NCBI GenBank assembly: GCA_026416715.1
Contig: JAOAEQ010000038.1
Location: 1 to 13,303 of the forward strand
Source of the DNA: a bacterium
GTDB taxonomy: Bacteria > UBP4 > UBA4092 > JAOAEQ01
DNA: 13,303 nucleotides
Direction: 5' to 3'
This document shows positions 1 to 6,425 of the stretch, in pieces (position 1 is the first letter of the stretch; the number at the start of each line of letters is the position of its first letter). The translations under genes and the position numbers were made by a program. The notes under the pieces are model-generated. The model saw only the letters and a list, made by a program, of their open reading frames with translations. It searched no databases and was not told where the DNA came from.

Positions 1-19
1 AGATGTGTATAAGAGACAG
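1..19 (+). other. Residual Nextera transposase adapter (artefact)
   Basis: The first 19 bases, AGATGTGTATAAGAGACAG, are exactly the mosaic-end/read-primer sequence left by Illumina Nextera tagmentation. It puts an in-frame TAA at 10-12 in front of the first gene, which would mislead a gene caller. The sequence is synthetic and shows that this is a contig edge; native DNA begins at about 20. Confidence 0.96.
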
Positions 20-5075: not shown

Positions 5076-5110
5076 ATCCGTTACCTCCAAGAAAATTTTT
5101 TGTATATATA

Positions 5111-5140
5111 ATCATATATCAAAAAGTTCTACATTGTCAA
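5111..5140 (-). promoter_or_regulatory. Promoter for MerR-like gene and downstream methyltransferase
   Basis: On the minus strand a perfect -35 TTGACA (5140-5135) is followed after 18 bp by TATGAT (5116-5111), five of six matches to TATAAT. An alternative -10, TATATG, gives a 16-bp spacer. An AT-rich near-palindrome overlaps the -10. It is back to back with the plus-strand promoter at 5173-5201. Confidence 0.7.
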
Positions 5141-5172
5141 GTAAAAAATGCAAAATTAAATCCATTTTATTA

Positions 5173-5201
5173 TTGACAAATACTATAAATTATGCTATTA
5201 T
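5173..5201 (+). promoter_or_regulatory. Strong sigma70-like promoter into palindrome-rich leader
   Basis: TTGACA (5173-5178), a 17-bp spacer, then TATTAT (5196-5201): near-consensus. The expected start is near 5208, leaving about 200 nt before the first likely start codon at 5405. The transcript would contain all the inverted repeats at 5229-5358. Confidence 0.75.
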
Positions 5202-5228
5202 TTCTGCCGAAATTATCCAAATTATATT

Positions 5229-5244
5229 TAGAATAATTATTCTA
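5229..5244. repeat. Perfect 16-bp palindrome, possible operator
   Basis: TAGAATAATTATTCTA reads identically on both strands. It lies about 20-35 nt downstream of the predicted transcription start, a usual place for a repressor operator. It could equally be a small RNA hairpin. Protein partner unknown. Confidence 0.5.
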
Positions 5245-5253
5245 CAATTGGCT

Positions 5254-5302
5254 GGAAGCGGGGTTGAACCCGAATTGAACCGGTCAATTCGGGTTCCGCT
5301 CC
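5254..5302 (+). repeat. Long hairpin (19 paired positions) in leader
   Basis: The inner stem is a perfect 12-bp inverted repeat, AACCCGAATTGA (5267-5278) with TCAATTCGGGTT (5284-5295), with the 5-nt loop ACCGG. Below it, a five-base bulge on the left arm (5262-5266) is followed by seven more pairs between 5254-5261 and 5296-5302, with one bulged A. There is no T-run after it, so it is not a simple terminator. It could be a structured leader, a small RNA, or the hairpin of a replication or transposition site. No known family is recognised. Confidence 0.7.
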
Positions 5303-5342
5303 GTTTCACCTTAAGGTTCCCTGCAACGTTAGGTCACGGTTC

Positions 5343-5358
5343 GAATCCGTTCGGATTC
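5343..5358 (+). repeat. Short perfect hairpin embedding a tRNA T-arm-like sequence
   Basis: GAATCC (5343-5348) pairs with GGATTC (5353-5358) around a 4-nt loop. The preceding bases, AGGTCACGGTTCGAATCC, look like the variable loop and T-arm of a tRNA, but no acceptor stem or anticodon arm can be paired around it. A 10-bp palindrome (ACCTTAAGGT, 5308-5317) lies just upstream. It may be a decayed tRNA end left at an integration site, or a coincidence. Confidence 0.35.
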
Positions 5359-5404
5359 AATTTCAGCGCAACCTGAATTACCGTTGCCTAAAGTCAAAGA
5401 GAAC

Positions 5405-5845
5405 ATGCTGAGGATATCCATGATGAATGGTATTCACATTATGCACGATATCAATCGATTCGAAGCGGAGTTCGTTCGGCAGATTGAAGCTGGCTATACG
5501 CCGCTCGATGCGTTGCACCGAACCTTCGTTTCGCTCGGTAACCAATATCTCCTGCAGGTTGACCGCATCGGCGTATCCGGATTTCCGCTAGGCGCACGGG
5601 AAGTGCGTGGAAAGTTCGGCGATAAAATTTTTGCGGTTCGTCAGGGAACGCAGTATGTCAAAGACTACAAGAAACCATCGAATCCGCGAACGGCTCGCCA
5701 ACAAGCGAACCGGAATAAATGGAAAACGATAGCGCAATCCTGGAAGAATGTCTCCGATGCGGAAAAAACGGAATATAACCGTCGCGCTACCGGACAACGG
5801 TTCAGCGGATTTAATCTTTATGTTCGAGAACAATATCGACAGTAA
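5405..5845 (+). CDS. Conserved hypothetical protein, phage-associated type
   Basis: About 146 residues, unrecognised by function. The C-terminal 60 residues carry a motif I recall from phage-linked hypothetical proteins: KPSNPRTARQQANRNKW, a Trp-rich helix (IAQSWKNVSDAEKTEYNRRA), then GQRFSGFNLYV. It is preceded by GKFGDKIFAVRQG, as in short beta segments of such proteins. No signal peptide or membrane segment is seen. Start choice is open: TTG at 5384 has no SD; ATG 5405 has weak AAAGAG before it; ATG 5420 has GAGG six nt upstream and may be the true start. The stop lies 26 nt inside the next gene's start, so the pair is probably translated from one message driven by the promoter at 5173. 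No catalytic motif is seen. Confidence 0.6.
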   Translation: MLRISMMNGIHIMHDINRFEAEFVRQIEAGYTPLDALHRTFVSLGNQYLLQVDRIGVSGFPLGAREVRGKFGDKIFAVRQGTQYVKDYKKPSNPRTARQQANRNKWKTIAQSWKNVSDAEKTEYNRRATGQRFSGFNLYVREQYRQ

Positions 5846-6425
5846 TCACCAACCATCAACGAAAAACCTACCGAAAAAACCGAAGTTCAAACTGCAGGGC
5901 GCAACCGCGAATTCCGAATATTTCGTTCGATATCCACAGAAGGTCTACGACATGATTCTGATGAGCAATCTTCCGGTTCAGGCGAAAGAAATCCTTGATG
6001 TAGTTGCCCGATTTACCTACGGTTTTGGGATAAAAAGCAGTTATTTCCCGTGGGTTTCAATCCAACCGTTTGTTAGCGGACATAAATCCAAGGTTAATCG
6101 CATCATCAAAGGATTGATTAACGCAAGAATATTAATAGGTGGACCGATTCAATCAAAATATAATAAGAATATCGGCGGGTGGGAATTAGCCATCAACGGT
6201 AATACCGATGAGTGGGATGTCAGTCGCGATAATGATAAACTCGATAATCACCGCAAATTACAGAAAATCTCCGCTGGATTGAAAGCAATGAATAAATCGC
6301 ATGTAAAGCAATATCCACAGAACGATATACCAAAACAGCCCGAATTTGAAATTTCTGACTGTGAATTTGCTGCAGCCCCAGATGAGCAAATGACCCAGAA
6401 CTCGGAAACCTGGTGCATAACTTAA
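5820..6425 (+). CDS. Winged-helix protein resembling phage replication protein O N-terminal domain
   Basis: About 201 residues from ATG 5820. An in-frame upstream ATG at 5748 would overlap the previous gene by about 100 nt and has no good SD. Residues about 40-105 run VYDMILMSNLPVQAKEILDV, then FTYGF, then FVSGHKSKVNRIIKGLINARIL. This is the layout of the phage replication O N-terminal (winged-helix, origin-binding) domain, where xxxRTYGW precedes a recognition helix. The C-terminal 90 residues are polar and low in predicted structure, perhaps the helicase-loader contact. No DnaC-like ATPase, DnaB-like helicase or integrase follows, so this is either a remnant or a reused phage regulator. It overlaps the preceding gene by 26 nt. 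No terminator follows clearly. The assignment is from pattern only. Confidence 0.55.
   Translation: MFENNIDSNHQPSTKNLPKKPKFKLQGATANSEYFVRYPQKVYDMILMSNLPVQAKEILDVVARFTYGFGIKSSYFPWVSIQPFVSGHKSKVNRIIKGLINARILIGGPIQSKYNKNIGGWELAINGNTDEWDVSRDNDKLDNHRKLQKISAGLKAMNKSHVKQYPQNDIPKQPEFEISDCEFAAAPDEQMTQNSETWCIT

Follow-up and report, generated by a model that had tools for sequence, protein, structure and literature searches.

Dispersed palindromes are common in general. MITEs and other small mobile sequences with terminal inverted repeats include the Correia-type and RUP elements, and matS is one 13-bp sequence that is restricted to the terminus region. REP sequences comprise GTAG- and CGTC-tagged superfamilies with RAYT / TnpA-REP (PMC3733652, PMC8266576, PMC2817692), and the REP transposase reads a tetranucleotide together with a single-stranded hairpin (PMC8266576). 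The hairpin described here, which lies in the leader of a gene pair, belongs to a dispersed palindromic repeat of which about 95 copies were located in its 2.96-Mb genome when all searches were combined.

The window, that is, the whole 13,303-nt stretch of DNA that was analysed, is contig C38 of a draft genome (G000; 2.96 Mb, 64 contigs), in which genes were called as longest ORFs of at least 90 aa. Chromosomal metabolic genes are present on the contig, and, with the contig belonging to this genome, nothing supports the earlier suggestion that the leader might hold a site of a small replicon. Window positions 1-19 (AGATGTGTATAAGAGACAG) match the Nextera/Tn5 mosaic-end adapter at the contig start, which indicates an untrimmed adapter in the assembly. 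Positions 70-960 and 1242-2561 encode adjacent Big_2-domain proteins, apparent paralogues of one another. The features of the leader and its setting are as follows.

5111-5140, minus strand: divergent promoter-like site of the MerR-like gene (11/12 matches; setting)
5173-5201, plus strand: sigma-70-like promoter TTGACA-17-TATTAT of the downstream gene pair (11/12 matches; setting, outside the repeat)
5229-5244, no strand: perfect 16-bp palindrome TAGAATAATTATTCTA, a possible operator, borderline against chance (outside the repeat)
5255-5307, no strand: whole arm pairing of the window copy, flanks partly paired (inverted-repeat search, folds)
5260-5302, no strand: dispersed 43-bp palindromic repeat, S1 family, CCCG variant (49.1 bits with model R2)
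5316-5404, plus strand: imperfect inverted repeat, arms 5316-5340 and 5380-5404, with two small hairpins inside (outside the dispersed repeat)

The first gene behind the promoter encodes a protein of 141-153 aa with a weak HMG-box match only, and the product of the second (5820-6425) has the N-terminal domain of phage replication protein O (PF04492). Upstream, a divergent gene under a promoter of its own encodes a MerR-like regulator. Viral contigs yielded no relatives of either downstream protein, and phage records yielded none of the O-like one. An earlier note on this leader had listed a near-consensus promoter, 16-bp and 10-bp palindromes, a hairpin, and a T-arm-like piece, with the first likely start codon about 200 nt downstream, and all of these features are present. 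The promoter agrees with the consensus at 11 of 12 positions, and the likeliest start codon, ATG 5420, is preceded by GAGG at 5410-5413 and sits about 210 nt past the expected transcription start. The strong hairpin was likewise confirmed, but its reported 19 paired positions, 12 of them in a perfect stem, were revised on recounting to 20 of 24 (arms 5255-5278 / 5284-5307) with the inner 13 perfect.

The small features were compared with chance expectation. The 16-bp palindrome has a P of about 0.035 in an AT-rich stretch, and 0.27 to 0.67 such palindromes are expected per window; it lies near the divergent promoters and is the one feature here that may still be a candidate operator. The perfect 10-bp palindrome ACCTTAAGGT at 5308-5317 is of a kind expected by chance (0.63 per 330 nt). 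The T-arm-like sequence is a 13-nt piece (CGGTTCGAATCCG, 5337-5349), and a tRNA or attachment-site remnant was rejected, as ARAGORN reported no tRNA and only this piece is there. Shuffled sequences fold less well than what remains of the leader (5308-5420; z -3.2), of which convincing copies were not found elsewhere in its own genome; the inverted repeat at 5316-5404 is possibly a leader structure of the gene pair. No gathering-level Rfam match was obtained in the window, and only chance-level matches were obtained in 5080-5450. The hairpin, by contrast with these features, is far beyond chance as a DNA fold (z -5.5), and the leader as RNA also has a very stable fold (z -5.5). Read as a 43-mer, the window copy has feet GGGG / CTCC and 16/20 arm positions paired, and is partly decayed, in its left foot and in its arm pairing. 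The features of the leader are thus unrelated to one another, and the hairpin is probably a passenger in this 5' region of the gene pair.

Comparison of the leader with its own genome gave dozens of matches, most of them limited to the hairpin, so that the search proposed earlier found it well beyond this contig. The core GAATTGAACCGGTCAATTC, with at most 3 mismatches, occurs at about 40 genome sites (0 for a reversed-pattern control), and about 51 genome sites are recovered with a covariance model for which 38 copies were used. Two models were used, R1 for the S1 family and R2 for all families; copy positions on most contigs above C18 came from model searches. A long-palindrome scan that was blind to sequence recovered more families, which have other stems in an unchanged frame. 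At least six stem families share this frame, which consists of GGAG...CTCC feet, three variable complementary bases, and a family-specific stem. The stems are as follows.

S1: AATGAGAATTGAACCGTTCAATTCTCATT, variants CCCG, TCGG, and ACGG (the window copy is CCCG)
S2: GAGTGGGTATTGCTTTGAGCAATACCCACTC
S3: CTACGAACGAGATAWTATCTCGTTCGTAG
S4a: GAACAAGAGCGG...
S4b: GAACCAGTGTG...
S5: GATGAACGAGCTC...

In all families GGAG stands 20 positions outward of the centre, which is 3 nt long (2 nt in part of S5), giving a foot-to-foot length of 43 bp (42 with the 2-nt centre). A gap-free alignment of 35 elements has 95.7% of its cells paired, with 227 double-change cells vs 68 in shuffles, and slid pairings collapse. 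A scan for structure plus feet over 2.05 Mb returned 71 elements vs 2 in the reversed sequence. The half-site GAATTG is conserved within S1, the outer bases of the G000 copies are often TASY ahead of GGAG, and many copies have decayed feet or arms, the window copy among them. A separate group of small palindromes, AAAGCAAAGTCCGAANTTCGGACTTTGCTTT, with T-rich ends (L094 ~1111, L147 ~16550, L172 ~4352), probably consists of terminators.

One other genome of the phylum, G001, was compared; it comes from a member of the same taxonomic class as the window genome, but of a different taxonomic family. It contains 23 copies of GGAG-NNN-TAACGGAGAGGGTCWGACCCTCTCCGTTA-NNN-CTCC, which is absent from G000, and none of the six G000 stems was present among the palindromes of 280 kb sampled from G001. 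The S1 model R1 gave no match in 96 genomes outside the phylum, and R2, which covers all families, was applied to G000 and G001 only. The core, sought in 84,980 species genomes and also among viral contigs, gave only isolated matches in about the number expected by chance, and model matches were at most partial. Judged from these sequences, the repeat is a class-level family of which each of the two genomes has its own stems. G001 also has a palindrome group TTTTGACAGCTGTCAAAA without GGAG feet (L191 ~5635, L194 ~2601, L197 ~16577). In three G001 copies (C8:155346, C62:142211, C65:102693) the arms carry differing triplets, some of which (TTA, TGG) occur as full pairs in other G001 copies, a pattern like that of recombination between two copies at their centre.

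The copies are concentrated between genes, 69/79 being wholly intergenic vs 8.5% of positions. Among 72 copies, 41 lie in co-directional, 17 in divergent, and 14 in convergent intervals, where 47, 17, and 8 were expected (p 0.07). No T-tails were found on the copies and no terminator was called at the window hairpin; an intrinsic terminator was rejected on the latter ground and on the 17/72 copies in divergent intervals. On the transcribed strand, the 41 copies in co-directional intervals have no preference for G.U pairs over A.C (24 vs 37), although RNA would tolerate G.U. A regulon was also rejected, since ten S1 neighbour genes are unrelated (they include SurA-like, purine synthesis, YlxM, ChrB, MFS, Fe-ADH, and aconitase genes). 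The triplets next to the feet are nearly free in sequence, yet are complementary from arm to arm: S1 has 9 full pairings vs 2.5 expected (p 1.5e-4), S3 gives p 0.001, and G001 has 16/23 vs 4.7 expected (p<5e-5). Because otherwise free positions pair in this way, it appears to be the hairpin, rather than the linear duplex, that is read. The disregard of gene orientation, the lack of T-tails or target duplications, and the lack of a G.U excess together point to action as a DNA hairpin rather than as an RNA element. The covariation that the earlier note had proposed to seek among homologous leaders is strong, but it is the copies across the genome, not orthologous leaders, that show it. The note's view that the four features form a single device in the leader of the operon did not hold, since the hairpin recurs between unrelated genes throughout the genome, and its reading of the hairpin as a leader RNA or operator specific to the gene pair is contradicted by copies in divergent, convergent, and co-directional intervals. 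Its proposal of the hairpin as a candidate undescribed element stands, the hairpin being beyond chance and a description of such an element not having been found.

Spacing was analysed over 2.05 Mb in 17 contigs with 68 family-assigned copies and 51 neighbour gaps; the family definitions came from this same genome, but were made without positional information. The gaps have a mean of 23.9 kb and a CV of 0.46, and two are below 10 kb, the smallest being about 8.6-8.7 kb. In 5000 random intergenic placements the CV was 0.98 (lowest 0.65), so that the observed value has P<1/5000, and there were 11.8 gaps below 5 kb and 19.5 below 10 kb (lowest 9). As a control, 72 unrelated palindromes on the same contigs look random (CV 0.90, 20 gaps below 10 kb). 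Eight structure-scan matches of no family were excluded from these figures, and their inclusion gives the same kind of result (CV 0.53). Different stem families are joined by 42/51 gaps, from which it follows that all families form one spaced series. The index of dispersion in 40-kb bins is 0.30, vs 1.05 for random placement and 0.53 with an 8.6-kb exclusion. An exclusion of 8.6 to 12 kb accounts for the floor of the gaps. Internal gaps are capped at 51 kb, a ceiling below the prediction from exclusion alone (P at most 0.008); when contig ends are counted (71.7 kb are free at the start of C3), P for exclusion alone is 0.07-0.16, and the ceiling lies only marginally beyond such models. Contigs outside the test are mostly in agreement, with gaps of 31.6 kb (C19), 24.7, 20.5, and 17.0 kb (C20), 16.4 kb (C21), 19.8 kb (C22), and 26.9 kb (C29). 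Exceptions are a 6.2-kb gap in C23 and a tandem pair in C26 (24302/24349). The ten gaps in G001, of 16 to 85 kb, are consistent with even spacing and too few for proof.

The reading that we favour, with some reservation, is that of a mobile hairpin repeat similar to REP, with copies that either avoid one another or are kept at about one per chromosomal domain. The copies would have arisen by copying, as dozens of loci have a stem of about 29 bases in common, and the repeat would be a present or past non-autonomous mobile element. Machinery acting in trans would recognise the feet and the extruded hairpin, in single-stranded or cruciform DNA, as is suggested by the mutual pairing kept at free positions. 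The spacing would follow if a resident copy discouraged another nearby, or if about one copy per 24 kb were retained for a chromosome-structural role. Both the mobility and the extrusion are what we infer from sequence comparison, and arm-templated repair could also homogenise the arms. In a search for a mobilising enzyme, the Y1 transposase (PF01797) was absent from G000 and G001, whereas a control search finds PF01797 in E. coli and others. No direct repeat of 2 to 9 nt was enriched at any plausible boundary of 39 S1 copies, and a search of the S1 family's own genome for a parent element with the S1 half-site returned palindromic copies only. A REPtron-like arrangement, with repeats flanking a recurrent gene, was rejected, as no copies bracket a gene-sized stretch bar one 6.2-kb pair. 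That pair's gap in C23 and the C26 tandem pair are departures from the spacing that weigh against this reading.

The same spacing may instead reflect a chromosome-architecture site, for which selection would keep about one palindrome per 24 kb, cruciform or protein-bound, setting loops or supercoil domains; the stem families would then be interchangeable and the hairpin shape read rather than the sequence. This is possible but doubtful. It agrees with regular spacing across stem families (42/51 gaps between families, minimum 8.7 kb), with an index of dispersion below that of exclusion alone (0.30 vs 0.53), with internal gaps of at most 51 kb, and with structure conserved above sequence. Set against these are the longest free stretch of 71.7 kb, with which exclusion alone is not firmly rejected (P 0.07 to 0.16), the decay of feet or arms in many copies including that in the window, and the fact that no protein is known to read the palindromes. 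It can be proposed only tentatively that this class of bacteria marks the chromosome with self-complementary 43-bp DNA hairpins about every 24 kb and that a structure-reading system sets domain spacing, with feet, length, and pairing conserved and the stem sequence varying by family and genome.

The remaining readings concern the leader or its transcription. An RNA element, in which transcribed hairpins terminate, attenuate, or stabilise mRNAs and here form the structured leader of the gene pair, would fit the very stable RNA fold (z -5.5), the location of the window hairpin between promoter and start codon, and the slight excess of convergent intervals (14 vs 8); with no T-tail, divergent intervals at the expected frequency (17 vs 17), G.U not above A.C on the transcribed strand (24 vs 37), and no Rfam match, it is very unlikely. 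Binding of a dimeric global regulator to a linear palindrome at many promoters would explain the dyad symmetry, the intergenic sites, and the conserved GAATTG of S1, but the frame is common to at least six unrelated stems, the free positions covary between arms as linear binding does not need, convergent intervals also carry copies, and ten sampled neighbours are functionally unrelated, which makes such an operator highly improbable. Scarcely credible is that all four features make up a single site dedicated to regulation or replication in a phage-like element: these do lie within 130 nt behind a good promoter, with a replication protein O-like second gene (PF04492) downstream and a favourable fold at 5308-5420 (z -3.2), but the largest of them is a genome-wide repeat, chance would be expected to give a 10-bp palindrome and puts the 16-bp palindrome at the borderline, and no relatives came to light, of the downstream proteins in viral contigs or of the O-like one among phage records.

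Should selection be the cause of the spacing, the size of chromosomal domains could be approached from sequence in this uncultivated lineage. Should the cause be insertion exclusion, the spacing would indicate an unknown mobiliser of hairpins whose target immunity extends over about 10 kb.

Among the described systems, matS shares with the present repeat short palindromic sites tens of kilobases apart, and differs in that the repeat has at least six stems in one frame on nearly all contigs examined and no known binding protein. MITEs are similarly short, non-coding, and dispersed, with inverted-repeat structure, whereas the repeat is without target-site duplication or a non-palindromic interior and places several unrelated stems in one frame; a classical DDE-transposon MITE was rejected on the absence of a target-site duplication in 39 S1 copies. 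We know of no REP-like family that combines paired feet at both ends, a constant length over unrelated stems, the lack of a tyrosine transposase, and even spacing across stem families. The hairpin ends of IS200/IS605 elements also place a tetranucleotide beside a DNA hairpin (PMC8266576), of which single-stranded reading is likewise inferred here, but neither genome has a Y1 transposase gene, and the searches yielded no element that includes a coding part. Compared with REP sequences, the tag here is GGAG paired with CTCC at both ends, whereas the REP tag (GTAG, GTRG, CGTC) is unpaired at one end, and GGAG was not found in two accounts of REP (PMC3733652, PMC8266576). All stems here have one fixed length (43 bp). 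The Y1 transposase is absent from G000 and G001, unlike REP of the GTAG type with a cognate RAYT. REP sequences frequently form dimers or BIMEs in opposite orientation, and here there is one tandem pair (C26:24302/24349), the next smallest gap being 6.2 kb. Divergent intervals are not avoided here as they are by REP (PMC3733652), G.U pairs are not favoured, and no report of regular spacing was found for REP. Membership of REP fails on the tag, pairing at both ends, the Y1 transposase, dimers, and divergent intervals. The present repeat nevertheless has in common with REP that its copies are short intergenic palindromes, about 100 in number, with a conserved terminal tetranucleotide, several stem families per genome, compensatory stem changes, and species-specific stems.
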